DNA of 10,157 bases, taken from a bacterium (GTDB lineage: Bacteria > T1Sed10-126). The stretch covers positions 1 to 10,157 of the forward strand of contig PWHN01000092.1 of assembly GCA_003554945.1 (NCBI GenBank), read 5' to 3'. The translations under genes were made by a program, and so were the position numbers. This document shows positions 1,866 through 10,157 of this stretch, one piece after another. Each line of letters begins with the position of its first letter. Position 1 is the first letter of the stretch. Under the pieces are notes generated by a model. That model was given only the letters and a program-made list of their open reading frames with translations, made no database searches and was not told the origin of the DNA.

Positions 1866-2594
1866 TTGATCTATCTTGGTATTTTCTACTTAACTCTGGT
1901 TAGTTTTTTAGCAATTTATTACGGGATTCTGTTTGAAATTACCAGTGAAAAGGTGTCAATTGCATTCTGGCTGGGCTTACTCTTCTCCATAGTGTTCATA
2001 TTTATTTCTTACTTTGTTCCTGTGAATACTCTCGGGTTAATTGTTGTGGGACTGGGTGGCGGAATAGCTGTGGCCGGTATAATAGTTCCGCCTTTGCTAA
2101 CGGTCCCAGGTATTTTGGGTTTGTTATTAGTTGTTTTTGGTTCATTTTTATCTTTGCCTAAAGCATTATCATTAATAGCTATTTCGCCCGGCGAATTAAT
2201 TTTAACCCGGCTGCTCCCAGCCGAAGTAGAGTTATTAATTTCAGAATTTCTGGCTCCTTTCAGTGGAGAACCACCGGAAAGTTGGGCTTATATATTCCAT
2301 CCATTATTTGGTTCTTTCCTTTTCATAACTACCTGTATAGTGTTATCTATTTTATTTTTTAAGAAAGATGAACAAAAAGTTCCGGGCGGGAGCTTTGAGT
2401 TGATAGGACAAACGGGTGTTGCACGCTCTAATTTAGAACCGGAAGGTAAAATAGAGATGGGGGATGAAATTTGGATAGCCCGGGCGAAATCAGGAATAAT
2501 TTCACCAAACACTGAAGTGGAAGTAATAGGCGAAGAAAATGAAATTCCAATTGTAAAAAAGAAAAACAATGTTACTAATCAAGGAGTTGATTGA
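1866..2594 (+). CDS. NfeD-like membrane protein (short form with C-terminal OB domain)
   Basis: This 242-residue protein belongs to the NfeD family, whose members are encoded next to and act with SPFH/stomatin proteins in membrane organisation. Hydrophobic segments lie at about 3-22, 30-50, 55-75, 80-96 and 146-166. They are followed by a soluble OB-fold domain at about 177-231 (ELIGQTGVARSNLEPEGKIE ... GIISPNTEVEVI), the hallmark of the family. The N-terminal ClpP-like protease domain of long NfeD proteins is absent, so this is the short form. The loop 105-145, between the fourth and fifth hydrophobic segments, is unusually long. It starts at TTG 1866, six bases after GAGGTG. Its TGA overlaps the ATG of the SPFH gene by one base, so they are translationally coupled. 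No enzymatic activity is expected from what is seen. Confidence 0.85.
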   Translation: MIYLGIFYLTLVSFLAIYYGILFEITSEKVSIAFWLGLLFSIVFIFISYFVPVNTLGLIVVGLGGGIAVAGIIVPPLLTVPGILGLLLVVFGSFLSLPKALSLIAISPGELILTRLLPAEVELLISEFLAPFSGEPPESWAYIFHPLFGSFLFITTCIVLSILFFKKDEQKVPGGSFELIGQTGVARSNLEPEGKIEMGDEIWIARAKSGIISPNTEVEVIGEENEIPIVKKKNNVTNQGVD

Positions 2595-3436
2595 TGATGG
2601 CAATAGTTTACACAGTTCCCGAGAAGCATTGCGTCATAGTTAAAAGATTTGATAAATTTGCTCGTGTTCAATCTTCCGGGATAAGGTTTCAGTTACCAAT
2701 TATCGAGAGTTTTCATACGGTTCCAGAATGGGAAGGGGAAGCGGTGAAAAATGATTATCAAATAGAAGTAATGGAACAGCAAACCAATACTCTTCCCCGG
2801 CAGACCCAAACTAAAGATAATGCTACAGTTGAGGCAAACGCCAGCGTTTATTGGAGAATACATAGCCCTAAAAAGGCCTGTTTTAACGTTGATAGCTTGC
2901 CCCAAGCTATGGCGGATACTGCGCTGAATGCATTGCGTTCAAATATTGGCCGCATGGAACTTGACGAGGTTCTTTCTGAGCGGAGCACCTTGAATAAGCG
3001 TATTCAAGAGGAACTCGTCGAGTCGACGGAAAACTGGGGAGTAAAAATAAGACGGGTGGAGATTCAAGAACTAAAAACTGATACTGATACCCGAGATTCT
3101 ATGCGGCAACAGATGGATGCTGAACGAAAGAGACGGGCCAGAGTAGCTGAGGCAGAAGGAGAAGCAGAATATGAAGTAAAAGTTGCCAAAGCGAAAAAGG
3201 AGGCCGCCATTCGGAAGGCCGAAGGGGAGGCTAAGGCGATAAAGAAAATAGCCCAGGCGGAGCGAGAATATTTAGAGACGCTAAAGCAGGAGGTATCGGC
3301 GGAGGACGCCGCCCAAATTCTTGTGGCTCAAAAGTATATTAATGGTTTTGATACTATTTCTGAAAACGAATCCGATAAGGTCTTTTTACCCAATAATTTT
3401 CAGCCGCTTCTCAGTCTTGATGCGGACGATGGGTAG
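2594..3436 (+). CDS. SPFH/stomatin-like (slipin) protein
   Basis: This 280-residue protein is a stomatin/prohibitin-type SPFH protein, expected to oligomerise on the membrane with the NfeD partner encoded just upstream. Residues 8-40 (EKHCVIVKRFDKFARVQSSG, then FQLPII) and 74-130 (KDNATVEANASVYWRI ... ALRSNIGRMELDEVLSER) are the SPFH core. WGVKIRRVEIQEL (148-160) is the usual end of the domain. Residues 170-235 form a charged coiled coil rich in EAEGEA repeats, followed by the conserved tail KVFLPNNFQPLL (262-273). The hydrophobic N-terminal anchor of most slipins is absent: the protein begins directly with the SPFH strand. The start is ATG 2594, seven bases after AAGGAG, or possibly ATG 2597. 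The next gene follows after nine bases. Confidence 0.9.
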   Translation: MMAIVYTVPEKHCVIVKRFDKFARVQSSGIRFQLPIIESFHTVPEWEGEAVKNDYQIEVMEQQTNTLPRQTQTKDNATVEANASVYWRIHSPKKACFNVDSLPQAMADTALNALRSNIGRMELDEVLSERSTLNKRIQEELVESTENWGVKIRRVEIQELKTDTDTRDSMRQQMDAERKRRARVAEAEGEAEYEVKVAKAKKEAAIRKAEGEAKAIKKIAQAEREYLETLKQEVSAEDAAQILVAQKYINGFDTISENESDKVFLPNNFQPLLSLDADDG

Positions 3437-3445
3437 GGATGATTT

Positions 3446-4123
3446 ATGAACTCACTTTTTAACCTCAAAAACAGCAAAGGGGGATTTGTTCGTAGAAAAA
3501 TTACTTGTTTAATTCAGCTCATGATTTTGTTTATAGTTTTGTGTTGGGTAGCAATTCCGCTATCAGTTGAGGCTCAACAAAGAGACCACAGAGAGCGTTG
3601 GTTAGAAGAAGATAGCGCCTCGGCCCAATTAGATTTTCCTCGTTTTTCTGTAGGGATATCCAGCTTTGCCCTTGTATATGATGATGGGATTTCAGAACAT
3701 GAGTTCGGAGGATTAGCTTTTCAATCAACTAATTATTTTAATCGCAACCTGGCGCTTCGTGGGCGCTTTTACAACACTGAGAATGACTATAATGAAGAAA
3801 TTTCAGGACTGGATTTAGCGCTTCTTTTAGGAACTGATTGGGGCGAGGGATTCAATGCCTTTGCAGGGTTGGGCTTTTATACAGAAAATTTTGAAACTCC
3901 GGAGATTTATCAGGCGTTGGGAATTGACTTGGGGGATGATTCATGGTCCGGTTATATGCTTGATTTTGGAATTGGTTATCAATGGAAACATGCTTCCCTG
4001 GGATTGAGTGGAGCGATCAGAGATTCATCGGATCTTGACTCATATAGGGAACAAGATCCGCAAATAATAAGTGTCGATGGGGCTTATGCTTCTGGTTCTT
4101 TATCTATCGAGTATATTTTCTAA
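3446..4123 (+). CDS. Secreted outer-membrane beta-barrel-like protein
   Basis: I cannot assign this 225-residue protein to a named family, but its layout suggests a small outer-membrane barrel. A basic segment (RRK, 16-18) precedes a hydrophobic stretch at about 21-40 and a likely signal peptidase site after VEA (41-43). The mature part alternates hydrophobic and polar residues with many Gly and aromatic residues, as in LALRGRFYNTEND, FNAFAGLGFYTENF, MLDFGIGYQW and ASLGLSGAIRD. It ends in LSIEYIF, and a terminal Phe is the recognition signal for barrel assembly. It starts at ATG 3446 after AGGGA and sits nine bases behind the SPFH gene, so it is probably the last gene of the NfeD-SPFH operon. 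If correct, it implies an outer membrane. Its role (porin, adhesin or structural) is unknown. Confidence 0.75.
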   Translation: MNSLFNLKNSKGGFVRRKITCLIQLMILFIVLCWVAIPLSVEAQQRDHRERWLEEDSASAQLDFPRFSVGISSFALVYDDGISEHEFGGLAFQSTNYFNRNLALRGRFYNTENDYNEEISGLDLALLLGTDWGEGFNAFAGLGFYTENFETPEIYQALGIDLGDDSWSGYMLDFGIGYQWKHASLGLSGAIRDSSDLDSYREQDPQIISVDGAYASGSLSIEYIF

Positions 4124-5534: not shown

Positions 5535-6953
5535 ATGGATTTTTTAAAACAAATAAGCTATCCGGAAACTGATTTCTCTGACAAAAAAGAATACTGGTTA
5601 CTGCTCGCCCTGGCTGCTGCGGTTCTTGTTTTATCTCTTCCGACGCCCGAGGGGCTTACAGTCACCGGCCACAGGTTTCTGGCCCTGCTGGCCGGATTGG
5701 TTGTTATCTTTTTAACCGAGTCTTTGCCGCTGCCGATCGCCATGGGGGGATCGGGTGTAATGCTGTCGCTCATGGGTATAGGAGAAGTTGATAAGATCTG
5801 GCCGGCCTATGCTCACCCTGTTGTATTTTTTGTCCTGGGCTGCCTGATGCTGGCCACCATTGTCGAACAGGTGGGCCTCTCAGAAAGACTCGGTAATTTT
5901 CTTTTGAAATATTGTGGAAACAATATAGTCAGATTTTCCTTCTTTTCCTGTATGTTTCTCGGATTCATCTCCGGTTTTATGCATGATGTTTCGTCAATCA
6001 CCATCGGCCTGGTAACCATCTTACCGCTGATGCGAGCGGCGCGGATAAAGCCGGGCAGTTCAATGGGCAAATTTTTGGTTCTTTCGATGACTTTTTGCTG
6101 CTCGGCCGGTGGTATGGGGACCCTTGTCGGCGGGGGGCGGAATATGGTCGCCGCGGCTTTTTTAAAAGATTTTACCGGTATAGAGATAAGTTTTCTGGAC
6201 TGGTTAATTCACGCAATGGTACCGGCTCTTCTTACCCTGCCGGTAATCTGGTCGGTTGTCTATTTAATTTTCCGGCCGGATACATCGGTTGAGTTTCCCA
6301 AAAAAGTCCTGATGAATACAGAGAACAGGAAAATTAGCTTGTCTGAAATTTTGACCCTGGTAGTTATCGGACTGGTTTTTGTTGGCTTTTTAACTGGAAA
6401 CATGCATGGTTTTGATTACTCCGTGATTGTGTTCCTGGGGGTTTTTATTCTTACTGTTCTCGGTATAACCGACTGGGAAGATTTGAATAAAAAGACCGCC
6501 TGGCCAATTGCATTTCTGGTGTTTGGCGGTGGGATTGCCCTGGGACGGGCGATGGATTACACCGGCACGGCAGCTTTTGTTGCTGATATTTTCTTCCCCT
6601 TCTTTTCAGGCAGAAACTTTTTCTTGCTGATAATTGGGGTGGCTCTTTTGGGGACTCTGTTTTCAGAAGTAATGGCCAATGTTGCAGCAGCAGCGCTGAT
6701 AATTCCGATTGCTATTCCTATCTCTCTGGAAATGGGTCTCGACCCCCGTGTAATAGCTTTTTCCCTGGGAATGTTTACCTCTTTCGCTTATTTGATGGTT
6801 ATTGGCTGTCCGCCTAACGCTATTGCTTATAGTTTTGGTTATTTCAAGACGTCGGATCTGTTTAAAACTGGAATAATAACGGAAACGGTAGCTATAATTT
6901 TTATGTTACTTGTCGTTTGGATTTGGTGGTCACTACTGGGCACAATAAACTGA
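5535..6953 (+). CDS. DASS/SLC13-family anion transporter (divergent signature motifs)
   Basis: This 472-residue integral membrane protein resembles divalent anion:Na+ symporters (DASS/SLC13), which carry dicarboxylates, citrate, sulfate or similar anions. It shows the two-fold repeat of that fold: hairpin entry regions at about 141-166 and 371-397, and the paired loops GGMGTLVGGGRN (192-203) and IGCPPNAIAYS (423-433). In typical members each entry hairpin carries Ser-Asn-Thr at the Na+ and substrate site. Here those triplets appear as H150-D151-V152 and A381-N382-V383, so ion coupling or substrate may differ. ATG 5535 is preceded by AAGGGA at eight bases. The length is normal. The gene is followed after 12 bases by a CBS-domain gene whose ribosome site overlaps this stop, so regulation by a nucleotide-sensing partner is likely. 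The substrate cannot be read from the sequence. Confidence 0.85.
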   Translation: MDFLKQISYPETDFSDKKEYWLLLALAAAVLVLSLPTPEGLTVTGHRFLALLAGLVVIFLTESLPLPIAMGGSGVMLSLMGIGEVDKIWPAYAHPVVFFVLGCLMLATIVEQVGLSERLGNFLLKYCGNNIVRFSFFSCMFLGFISGFMHDVSSITIGLVTILPLMRAARIKPGSSMGKFLVLSMTFCCSAGGMGTLVGGGRNMVAAAFLKDFTGIEISFLDWLIHAMVPALLTLPVIWSVVYLIFRPDTSVEFPKKVLMNTENRKISLSEILTLVVIGLVFVGFLTGNMHGFDYSVIVFLGVFILTVLGITDWEDLNKKTAWPIAFLVFGGGIALGRAMDYTGTAAFVADIFFPFFSGRNFFLLIIGVALLGTLFSEVMANVAAAALIIPIAIPISLEMGLDPRVIAFSLGMFTSFAYLMVIGCPPNAIAYSFGYFKTSDLFKTGIITETVAIIFMLLVVWIWWSLLGTIN

Positions 6954-6965
6954 GGAGGTTTTTTT

Positions 6966-7481
6966 ATGCCTGATGTCCCCGTTGTTGAGTATATGCAGCC
7001 GATTAAAAATTATGAGTCAGTGAAGATGGATGCTCTTTTTGAGGATATTGTTGATGTTTTTTTAACCGATAGTCCGAAAGAAAGAGAAACCAAGATTGTC
7101 GCCGTAGAAGACCAGGGCACCATTACGGGAATATTGTGTCTGGGAGATATCCTGCGCACTTTAAAAGAGTTGACCGGAGCTTACAGCCGGGATGAAATAT
7201 ATGAACGGTCATCCCGCCTGGATTCTTATGAGAACAAGAACCGGCATGAAATTGAAAAAACTCTTACTGTCGGTTTTTCTCTTAAGGTTCGTAACATTAT
7301 GATTATAGAGCGCCCCAAAATGACTGTGGATTCTTCCGCCGGCGAGGCACTGGATCAACTCCTGATGCACAATCTTAGGTTTCTTCCTATATACGACAGC
7401 AATGAAGAAAAAATTGTAGGTGTCGTACATGCCTCGAATCTTTATGAAAAAATAGTTGAAATTTGGAAAGATTCACTCTGA
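6966..7481 (+). CDS. Two-CBS-domain protein, probable transporter regulator
   Basis: This 171-residue soluble protein consists of two CBS motifs, which usually pair to bind adenosine nucleotides and regulate a partner. The first covers about 4-70 (VVEYMQPIKNYESVKMDALF ... IVAVEDQGTITGILCLGDIL). The second covers about 106-165 (VRNIMIIERPKMTVDSSAGE ... RFLPIYDSNEEKIVGVVHAS). They are joined by a charged linker at 71-105. There is no catalytic, DNA-binding or membrane domain. The start, ATG 6966, is seven bases after AGGAGG (6953-6958), which overlaps the transporter stop, so the pair is cotranscribed. The natural inference is a cytoplasmic sensor for the upstream transporter, but nothing in the sequence shows contact. 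The bound ligand is unknown. Confidence 0.88.
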   Translation: MPDVPVVEYMQPIKNYESVKMDALFEDIVDVFLTDSPKERETKIVAVEDQGTITGILCLGDILRTLKELTGAYSRDEIYERSSRLDSYENKNRHEIEKTLTVGFSLKVRNIMIIERPKMTVDSSAGEALDQLLMHNLRFLPIYDSNEEKIVGVVHASNLYEKIVEIWKDSL

Positions 7482-7894: not shown

Positions 7895-7971
7895 CTTCAA
7901 AAATTTATCTAAATTGCTATCCGCCACTAAGCCCTCCGAAATATTGCTCCGGCTTTTGTCACTTTCCTGCC

Positions 7972-8158
7972 TAATTTTCATATATTTTTCAATAGATCAT
8001 CTGATTAATTTATCCCCGGGGATAAATACCTTAGCGCTGGTAAAGTAGAGGAATTGCAGTCCTATTTCTTTCGGAGAGTTTTTAATTGTAGATGATTGGA
8101 GAATGTAGAAAACTATAAATAGAAGAACAAAATTATTTTGGGGCGAGGAGGCTCTATC
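7972..8158 (+). repeat. Duplicated leader of the propeller gene, copy 1
   Basis: These 187 bases, with the following 30 coding bases, recur at 9674-9890 at a constant offset of 1702. By eye I count about nine mismatches in 217 bases and no indel. The leader includes a perfect 20-bp palindrome (8008-8027), a TTTTTAATTGTAGATGATTG stretch, a TATAAAT that could be a -10 box (8114-8120), and the GAGGAGG ribosome site. It marks a tandem gene duplication in which the noncoding part has stayed nearly unchanged. Confidence 0.9.
8008..8027. promoter_or_regulatory. Perfect 20-bp palindrome, candidate operator
   Basis: ATTTATCCCCGGGGATAAAT is fully self-complementary. It stands about 130 bases upstream of the propeller gene and is unchanged in the second leader. 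Uninterrupted dyads of this kind often bind dimeric regulators. As a hairpin it would have no loop without opening central G-C pairs, so a DNA site is more likely than an RNA structure. The regulator is unknown. Confidence 0.5.
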
Positions 8159-9658
8159 ATGGAGAAAGAATTTAAAATTTCAGAGGCTTTTCTGAATAAA
8201 AAGAAAAAACATATTTGGCTTGCCACGCTTGCTATGACAATATTTGGCTTGTTTATTATAGCTGTTATTCTGACAGGACCCGCATCTCTCACTCCGGGCC
8301 TGAGTATGTTGGGTGTTATTTTTGTAGCAGTTAGCCTCATCTTTTTCCTGATAGTTTTTTACGTCATTCCCGTTCACTTTAGTTTAAAGAAAATGGGCGA
8401 AACACGTCTGGTTATAACGCCAGGTCAACTGATTAGAAAAACAGGGGACGACGAGGAAAAAATATCTTTTGATGAAGTTGAAAAACTAACTGTTGTATAT
8501 GGTGATTCGGAAGAACCTTCCGAGGTTAAGTTGTATTCAAAATCGGGCAATCTATATTTACAGGTGTATGAAAATACTGAAAAGATAGTTGATGAATTAA
8601 GCCAAAATATGGCTAAAGAAAAAATTAAAATAAAAGACAAAAGTTTATTCTCGACGTCAACTATCTGGCAAGCGATAGTGTTGGTTAGTATATTCTTATT
8701 TTTCTTTCTGCAATATATTGGAGTTCCAGCCGATTCCCTGAGCTGGATAGCACCCGCTCTTGTATCTTTTTTATTTGGGGTAAAAAGTTTAGCAAGCAGT
8801 TTTAATCGGTCTCTGGATGAATGGCATTGGGTAAAAGGGAAAACGGATAGAACCGTAGATTTTATATGGGGAGTAGTTTTATTAGCACTTAGTATTGTTT
8901 TAGTGGCGCCGTTTTTCATAGCTCACATAGGAACCCCGGAAGTAAAATGGTCGTATAAGACATGGGGCTCGGTAAGTAGTTCCCCCGCAGTAACTAATGG
9001 AGTGGTTTACGTGGGGAGTGATGATAACCACCTGTATGCGGTTGAAGTTGATAGTGGCCAGGAGTTGTGGTCGTATGCGACAGGGAGCCGGGTAAGAAGT
9101 TCCCCGGCAGTAGCCGATGGAGTGGTTTACGTGGGGAGTAATGATAACCACCTGTATGCGATTGAAGCGGATAGCGGTCGCGAGTTGTGGTCGCATGAAA
9201 CCGGGGGCCGGGTGCATAGTTCCCCGGCAGTAGCCGAGGGAGTGGTCTACGTGGGGAGTTGGGATAACCACCTGTATGCGGTTGAAGCGGAGAGTGGTCG
9301 TGAGCTGTGGTCATATGAAACCGGGGGCCCGGTGCATAGTTCCCCGGCAGTCGCCGATGGAGTGGTCTACGTGGGGAGTGATAATTTGCGCCTGTATGCG
9401 GTTGAAGTAGAGAACGGACGGAAGTTGTGGTCGTTTAGAACCGGGCTTCAGGTGCAGAGTTCCCCGGCAATAGCCGATGGAGTCGTCTATGTGGGGAATA
9501 ATGATAACCACCTGTATGCGATTGAAGCTGAGAGTGGCCGTGAGTTGTGGTCGTATGAAACCGGGGATGATGTGCGAAGTTCCCCGGCAGTCGTCGATGG
9601 AGTGGTCTACGTGGGCAGTGATGATAACCACCTGTATGCGATCCCATCAGGAGATTAA
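8159..9658 (+). CDS. Membrane protein with PH-like domain and C-terminal PQQ-type beta-propeller
   Basis: This 499-residue protein combines membrane segments with a surface propeller. Hydrophobic segments lie at about 18-40 and 47-72, then a soluble PH-like stretch at 82-150 (TRLVITPGQLIRKTGDDEEK, then ISFDEVEKL). More hydrophobic segments follow at 169-188, 195-212 and 235-257. Residues 264-499 are six consecutive 40-residue units, each starting WSYxTG and containing SSPAVxDGVVYVGSxDNHLYAxE, the PQQ-like repeat of eight-bladed or smaller propellers. With five membrane passes and the N-terminus inside, the PH-like part would be cytoplasmic and the propeller outside. No dehydrogenase catalytic residues are visible, so binding or scaffolding (for example BamB-like) is more likely than PQQ enzymology. 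ATG 8159 follows GAGGAGG by seven bases and is conserved in the paralogue; the in-frame TTG at 8138 lies before that ribosome site. The function is unknown. Confidence 0.82.
   Translation: MEKEFKISEAFLNKKKKHIWLATLAMTIFGLFIIAVILTGPASLTPGLSMLGVIFVAVSLIFFLIVFYVIPVHFSLKKMGETRLVITPGQLIRKTGDDEEKISFDEVEKLTVVYGDSEEPSEVKLYSKSGNLYLQVYENTEKIVDELSQNMAKEKIKIKDKSLFSTSTIWQAIVLVSIFLFFFLQYIGVPADSLSWIAPALVSFLFGVKSLASSFNRSLDEWHWVKGKTDRTVDFIWGVVLLALSIVLVAPFFIAHIGTPEVKWSYKTWGSVSSSPAVTNGVVYVGSDDNHLYAVEVDSGQELWSYATGSRVRSSPAVADGVVYVGSNDNHLYAIEADSGRELWSHETGGRVHSSPAVAEGVVYVGSWDNHLYAVEAESGRELWSYETGGPVHSSPAVADGVVYVGSDNLRLYAVEVENGRKLWSFRTGLQVQSSPAIADGVVYVGNNDNHLYAIEAESGRELWSYETGDDVRSSPAVVDGVVYVGSDDNHLYAIPSGD
8948..9655 (+). 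repeat. Six in-frame 120-bp tandem repeats encoding propeller units
   Basis: Units start at 8948, 9068, 9188, 9308, 9428 and 9548; the last is 12 bases short. The stretches AGTTCCCCGGCAGTAGCCGA, GGAGTGGT(T/C)TACGTGGGGAG and GATAACCACCTGTATGCG are almost invariant even at third codon positions. This points to recent unit duplication or ongoing recombination rather than protein-level constraint alone. Differences cluster at the residues before VxSSPA (for example GSR, GGR, GGP, GLQ, GDD) and at the DNH turn of unit 4 (NLR). Confidence 0.92.
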
Positions 9659-9660
9659 TG

Positions 9661-9683
9661 ATGAAAATACGCTTAATTTTCAT
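9661..9683 (+). terminator. A+T-rich hairpin after the propeller gene
   Basis: ATGAAAAT (9661-9668) pairs perfectly with ATTTTCAT (9676-9683) around a seven-base loop, two bases after the stop. The stem has little G+C and the T-run that follows is short, so termination would be weak. Its right arm is the first part of leader copy 2. Confidence 0.3.
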
Positions 9684-9860
9684 ATATTTTGCAATAGATC
9701 ATCTGATTAATTTATCCCCGGGGATAAATACCTTAGCGCTGGTAAAGTAGAGAAAATACATTCCTATTTCTTTCTGGGAGTTTTTAATTGTAGATGATTG
9801 GAGAATGTAGAAAACTATAAATAGAAGAACAAAAATATTTTGGGCCGAGGAGGCTCTATC
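9674..9860 (+). repeat. Duplicated leader of the propeller-type gene, copy 2
   Basis: This is the second copy of the 187-base leader at 7972, starting 15 bases after the propeller gene. The 20-bp palindrome (9710-9729), the TATAAAT stretch and the GAGGAGG ribosome site are all retained. The differences cluster between about 9751 and 9780. The two paralogues are therefore likely to be controlled alike. Confidence 0.9.
9710..9729. promoter_or_regulatory. Perfect 20-bp palindrome, second copy
   Basis: This is identical to 8008-8027 and sits at the same distance from its gene. See that entry. Confidence 0.5.
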
Positions 9861-10157
9861 ATGGAGAAAGAATTTAAAATTTCAGAGGCTTGCTTGGATA
9901 AGTATAAGAGAAATTTTATGATATCGGTCCTGGCGGTTACTTATTGTCTTTTTACAGTCATTTACCGCCACAGCACTTCGGCCAGGTTTTTTATGTTTTT
10001 GCTGGGGGGCTGCGCAGTCGTTCTGGTAGTTTTTGTAGTCATTCCCTTTCACTTTAGTTTTAAGAAAATGACCGAAACAAGCCTGGTAATAATGCCGGGA
10101 CAGTTAATTCAAAAAACGGGGAAAGATGAGGAGAGGATCCCCTTTGATGAAATCGAA
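9861..10157 (+). CDS. Paralogue of the PH-like/propeller membrane protein (partial, runs off the window)
   Basis: An open frame from ATG 9861 continues to the last base (99 codons seen). The ribosome site GAGGAGG lies seven bases upstream. The first ten residues (MEKEFKISEA) are identical to the upstream protein. The two membrane segments at about 19-35 and 42-62 are then very different in sequence, and the protein becomes similar again from VIPFHFSFKKM through SLVIMPGQLIQKTGKDEER and IPFDEIE, matching residues 69-108 of the paralogue. It is thus a tandem duplicate with a conserved PH-like domain. Whether it also carries a propeller cannot be seen here. Confidence 0.85.
   Translation, partial: MEKEFKISEACLDKYKRNFMISVLAVTYCLFTVIYRHSTSARFFMFLLGGCAVVLVVFVVIPFHFSFKKMTETSLVIMPGQLIQKTGKDEERIPFDEIE

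Follow-up and report, generated by a model that had tools for sequence, protein, structure and literature searches.

The question raised by this locus is what a protein might do when five membrane segments, an internal domain thought to be PH-like and a PQQ-type propeller are all found within a single chain, a combination that the earlier note could match to no family it could name. The window, that is the whole stretch of DNA analysed, is a complete contig (C110) of 10,157 bases from a draft genome of 2.2 Mb that is 93.5% complete. It contains the gene in question, here called gene A, and the beginning of a tandem paralogue, gene B. The explanation favoured here, which we hold to be evenly poised between right and wrong, is that A and B are lineage-specific inner-membrane proteins with a putative binding role, in which a constant module would be combined with interchangeable periplasmic binding domains. 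Gene A is made up as follows.

8159..9658, + strand: gene A, five-TM module and six-blade PQQ-type propeller, 499 aa (ORF, Pfam, hydropathy, AlphaFold2)
8210..8374, + strand: TM1-TM2, residues about 18-72 (hydropathy; AlphaFold2 helices 10-39, 46-78)
8396..8638, + strand: cytosolic strand-rich domain, residues about 80-160, PH-like by topology (profile match, models, Foldseek)
8660..8929, + strand: TM3, TM4 and TM5, residues about 168-257, C-terminus outside (hydropathy, AlphaFold2)
8942..9655, + strand: periplasmic propeller, six 40-residue units, about 55% GC (Pfam, TRF, hydropathy/repeat analysis, AlphaFold2)

The gene has 499 codons and a stop, with its ATG preceded by a GAGGAGG ribosome site at about 8146. 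Hydropathy gives five strong segments, at about 19-37, 52-70, 172-190, 194-212 and 236-254, and these are matched by AlphaFold2 helices at 10-39, 46-78, 166-186, 191-222 and 230-257, thus the five membrane segments first noticed in the sequence are borne out. Models of the module as a whole are of low confidence, with block means of 27-54 for AlphaFold2 and 55 for a second model, and are built on shallow alignments. The sequence KKKKH lies ahead of TM1 and KK lies behind TM2. By the Lys/Arg rule the Lys-rich start of the protein and the later KK put the N-terminus and residues 80-160 on the cytosolic side, which leaves the C-terminus outside. An Omp85/BamA-type gene is present in the genome, the host cell is very probably diderm, and the propeller is therefore probably periplasmic and not exposed outside the cell. 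The earlier suggestion that the protein binds something outside is thus kept in part, as binding is the natural reading of a propeller beside a lectin-like paralogue, but the site is placed in the periplasm. A protein encoded at 1444-2295 of locus L042 (G196 contig C33) reads as a 2TM-strand domain-2TM-strand domain, which suggests that TM3-TM4 of the module may have descended from a second 2TM-strand unit minus its soluble part.

The PH fold is a seven-stranded barrel capped by a helix. In A and B the best-conserved stretch is residues about 80-160, for which the predicted order is E-E-E-E-E-E-H (six strands and a C-terminal helix, pLDDT 55). A PH-like domain had been proposed at 82-150, and the strand-rich domain with its strands followed by a helix is indeed there, but the PH label is less secure. 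The two paralogues score 17 and 20 bits against the STM3941 family model NF041635, for which the cut-off is 40 bits, with E-values of 4.3e-3 and 4.6e-4 (7.4e-4 in another search), and hhalign against the same family gives a probability of 9.6% from a shallow profile; one STM3941 relative has a marginal match to Pfam bPH_6. Many PH domains (Avo1, Sin1, Pob3, SSRP1, Kindlin-3) are among the top Foldseek matches, all at a non-significant E of 0.12 or worse, and VIA-align listed no PH domain for the model of the 90-residue domain, a model poor enough that this says little. A PH-like fold is plausible, and is suggested by the sub-threshold STM3941 match, the strand order and the PH domains among the Foldseek matches. 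STM3941 proteins resemble A and B in that a soluble strand-rich domain comes after two TM helices, whereas the members examined are short proteins without an outer domain, and with scores under the cut-off A and B are not counted as members of that family.

The outer part of gene A is far clearer. The six 40-residue units seen at first reading are confirmed far beyond chance and occupy residues 262-499, TRF finding a period of 120 with 5.8 copies (score 807), Pfam returning PQQ_2 at 1.5e-46 (159 bits, gathering 27.6) and Beta-prop_ACSF4 at 3.5e-57, and AlphaFold2 modelling strands A-D in the blades at a pLDDT of about 90 over 270-499. The domain is a member of the PQQ-type beta-propeller superfamily. 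Its first strand D comes from residues 262-267 and its last unit is without a strand D. Across the ten pairs of the five complete blades protein identity is 62-85% (median about 72%), which places it among the highly repetitive, recently amplified propellers, defined by a median blade-to-blade identity above 60% (PMC9218822). With those propellers and with 3HXJ it shares the 40-residue blade, the motif W..S..TG..V.SSPAV...GVVYVGS.DNHLYA and blade identity above 60%. Collapse of blades during assembly is unlikely, because the longest exact repeat inside the array is 30 bases and the assembly overlap is 121. The propeller is probably not a PQQ-dependent dehydrogenase, scoring 96 bits against a cut-off of 480 for TIGR03075 and 41 against 833 for TIGR03074, and nothing marks it as part of a defence system, PADLOC giving only a spurious JAB-like match within the blade region. 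Its best NCBIfam match is the AfsK model NF053615, which represents kinases, signalling proteins to which a PQQ-type propeller is joined, although the score is 153 bits against a cut-off of 1300 and A has no kinase domain; one kinase-propeller protein was found, in L055.

Blades differ most from one another at position 267 and in the D-A loop (270, 271 and 273), and 288 in the B-C turn is variable as well; these positions and their equivalents would, by the usual propeller geometry, lie on one face. As no PQQ-enzyme model is matched above its cut-off and the variation appears to fall on one face, the propeller probably serves for binding, as a scaffold and not as an enzyme. The structural residues are invariant across all six blades, and dN/dS between blades is mostly 0.25-0.73 (below 1 in nine of the ten pairs and 1.0 in the other), as expected of blades that are retained and functional.

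A non-enzymatic periplasmic propeller of PQQ type is also what is found in BamB (YfgL), and the propeller of A could be a BamB-like or other assembly scaffold at the inner membrane, structural and not sensory, with the module a plain anchor. The similarity is real, with TIGR03300 matched at 2.5e-44, BamB in the PDB at about 1e-29 and a structural match of 1.7 A, yet the TIGR03300 score is 151 bits against a cut-off of 285, and BamB is an eight-bladed outer-membrane lipoprotein, whereas A has six blades, a five-TM module and no lipobox. These differences reject BamB itself as the identity of A. The wider scaffold explanation is improbable, since a fixed assembly role is hard to square with a paralogue that has an unrelated domain in place of the propeller.

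The number of blades is of interest in its own right. The designed Cake propellers take 3HXJ of Methanococcus maripaludis as their template. The closest solved relatives of the propeller are the designed Cake, Scone and Bagel propellers, 3HXJ and BamB, and its model superposes at 1.4 A over 235 residues on Cake8 and at 1.7 A over 237 on BamB, with 6.8 A for the six-blade Cake6 chain. The six blades of A fit six consecutive blades of 8-bladed rings, and being six eighths of such a ring one chain probably does not close it; the quality of these alignments points to an open arc of 8-blade curvature, a geometry taken from a nearly single-sequence AlphaFold2 model that may have copied it from 8-bladed homologues. 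The ring is probably completed through oligomerisation, or left open. The designed Cake rings have 8-9 blades, unlike the six that A has on its five-TM module. A six-blade WRAP construct formed tetramers (PMC6805158), and 3HXJ has been called an incomplete propeller (PMC7734218).

Composition changes abruptly between the two parts of gene A, the module having a GC of 37% and a GC3 of 0.32 and the propeller 55% and 0.56, a break that comes partly from T-rich membrane codons, though GC3 breaks too. With a GC-rich propeller against a GC-poor module, gene A looks like a graft of the two. This, together with an occurrence in one genome only, at a lineage-specific site, and a blade number of six, lower than the roughly counted 7-9 or so motifs of most related natural propellers, would suit a recent and perhaps decaying fusion. 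A blade array would have come to lie behind the module during the tandem duplication, and its six blades would be what is left of an eight-blade ring and would do little. Decay is hard to reconcile with the intact frame, the low dN/dS, the invariant structural residues and the intact gene B alongside, and we think this account unlikely.

The second gene, and the DNA that it shares with the first, are placed as follows.

7969..8198, + strand: 5' segment before and into gene A, intergenic DNA and the first ~13 codons, 95% identical to that of gene B
8008..8027, no strand assigned: perfect 20-bp palindrome ATTTATCCCCGGGGATAAAT upstream of gene A (sequence search)
9671..9899, + strand: the 5' segment again, ahead of gene B (DNA comparison)
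9710..9729, no strand assigned: second copy of the palindrome ATTTATCCCCGGGGATAAAT, upstream of gene B (sequence search)
9861..10157, + strand: gene B, the first 99 codons in the window (121-bp overlap with contig C39, frame, homology)

The end of the window is identical to the start of contig C39 over 121 bases, in what seems to be a k-mer overlap from the assembly, and the frame runs on across it; the join depends on this one 121-bp overlap and is supported by the frame and by homology. Read through in this way gene B encodes 502 aa, with the same membrane module (41% identity to A over residues 1-270) followed by a probable Lcl_C/DUF1566 domain, so that the tandem paralogue with the same PH-like part, of which only the start had been visible, is now complete. 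The match of the C-terminal domain to Lcl_C (PF07603) is at the threshold, hmmscan giving an E of 3.9e-8 and 34.0 bits against a cut-off of 34.9, and 36.4 bits when neighbours are included in the genome search, and no second domain of this type was found in the genome. In composition the two parts of gene B differ by less than those of A, with a GC of 39% in the module against 50% behind it and a small break in GC3 (0.42 against 0.48).

Lcl_C/DUF1566 is a C-type-lectin-like domain that occurs in Legionella Lcl and in some targets of diversity-generating retroelements. Gene B resembles these in the domain that it probably carries at its C-terminus, but has it on a five-TM module and in a genome without a reverse transcriptase, no PF00078 match being found in the 93.5% complete assembly, and this argues against gene B as a target of such a retroelement. 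The idea that A and B belong to a diversifying family stands in a sense other than the one first meant, insofar as a wholly different outer domain is found on the same module behind near-identical 5' DNA; it is weakened by there being only two members in the genome and no reverse transcriptase.

The shared 5' segment is about 220 bp long and 95% identical between A and B (88-98% per 50-base block), and then identity falls abruptly near codon 13 to about 40%, recovering to 62-74% over the cytosolic domain. The two genes differ less in their non-coding DNA than in the coding DNA that follows, a pattern that indicates a 5' part recently re-copied or subjected to gene conversion. The 18-bp core of ATTTATCCCCGGGGATAAAT is present just twice in the genome, upstream of A and of B, and the palindrome is a possible operator; neither a terminator nor a sigma-70 promoter gave a signal above shuffles in the segment. 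That the two genes belong to a recombining surface repertoire, conserved 5' ends permitting exchange of outer domains as in phase-variable or antigen-variation loci, is very unlikely. The contrast in identity is what gene conversion or recent cassette exchange would leave, and the different 3' domains also fit, but the 5' segment has only two copies in the genome, no silent cassettes were seen, a reverse transcriptase was not found, and the window genes that were read include no recombinase.

The distribution of the module is restricted. A profile of the two paralogues did not convincingly find it outside its own genome in 386 genomes, giving scattered weak matches, some across stop codons, with the long frames examined looking unrelated. 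Only two genomes of the phylum are in the set covered. No relatives were confirmed in two scans of genome contigs, where pattern seeds may miss distant ones, and none were found in viral contigs or plasmids. The genome from the sister genus has no match to the module; there the DASS transporter and CBS genes are conserved, but the gene behind them, going by its sequence, would encode a BipA/TypA-like GTPase. The A/B pair is thus lineage-specific in the data searched. Each of the domain types is known, and the combination and the swap of outer domains were found nowhere else among the 386 genomes, genome contigs, viral contigs and plasmids, in agreement with the unmatched architecture reported at the outset.

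What the analysis shows for A and B is a shared module with different outer domains, near-identical 5' DNA, a composition seam in A and a restricted distribution. Under the favoured explanation of lineage-specific binding proteins, the pair would stem from a tandem duplication in which the 3' part was exchanged, each gene keeping a constant module of five TM helices that holds a small cytosolic, probably PH-like domain, with the outer domain being a six-blade PQQ-type propeller in A and an Lcl_C C-type-lectin-like domain in B. A periplasmic protein, peptide or glycan would be the ligand of the outer domain. The module would hold that domain at the membrane, and through clustering or a change of conformation it may let the cytosolic domain respond to binding. 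A signalling role is suggested by the topology, and the module could be a plain anchor. A further idea, which we put forward as a long shot, is that six-blade arcs of neighbouring molecules form shared periplasmic rings, with ring assembly or ligand binding clustering the cytosolic PH-like domains, and that the constant 5' end and module serve as an exchangeable platform for new binding domains in the periplasm. Should six-blade arrays of separate chains assemble, nature would have its own version of the laboratory six-blade oligomers (PMC6805158). The pair shows, in a small natural system, a single membrane platform with unrelated binding domains, near-identical 5' DNA and a clear seam between its parts; its significance is moderate, as the domain types are familiar and the binding is putative.

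Other genes lie in the window, in which no structured RNA was found at Rfam gathering. Upstream of gene A, at 5535-7481, are a DASS-type anion symporter and a CBS-domain protein, the pair that is also kept in the sister genus. At 428-987 a DUF2281 antitoxin-like ORF is followed by a PemK/MazF-like toxin (Pfam), an ordinary toxin-antitoxin pair, and at 1866-3436 an NfeD-like protein is followed by an SPFH/Band_7 protein (Pfam), the usual NfeD-stomatin pair. Elsewhere, in L012 (G000 contig C27), a CDC48/VAT-like AAA ATPase of archaeal appearance adjoins a large acidic repeat protein, and this is possibly a foreign contig within the draft genome. Within the window, at 3446-4123, a 225-aa protein lacks any Pfam match, begins like a signal peptide and ends in Phe; it looks like a small outer-membrane barrel.
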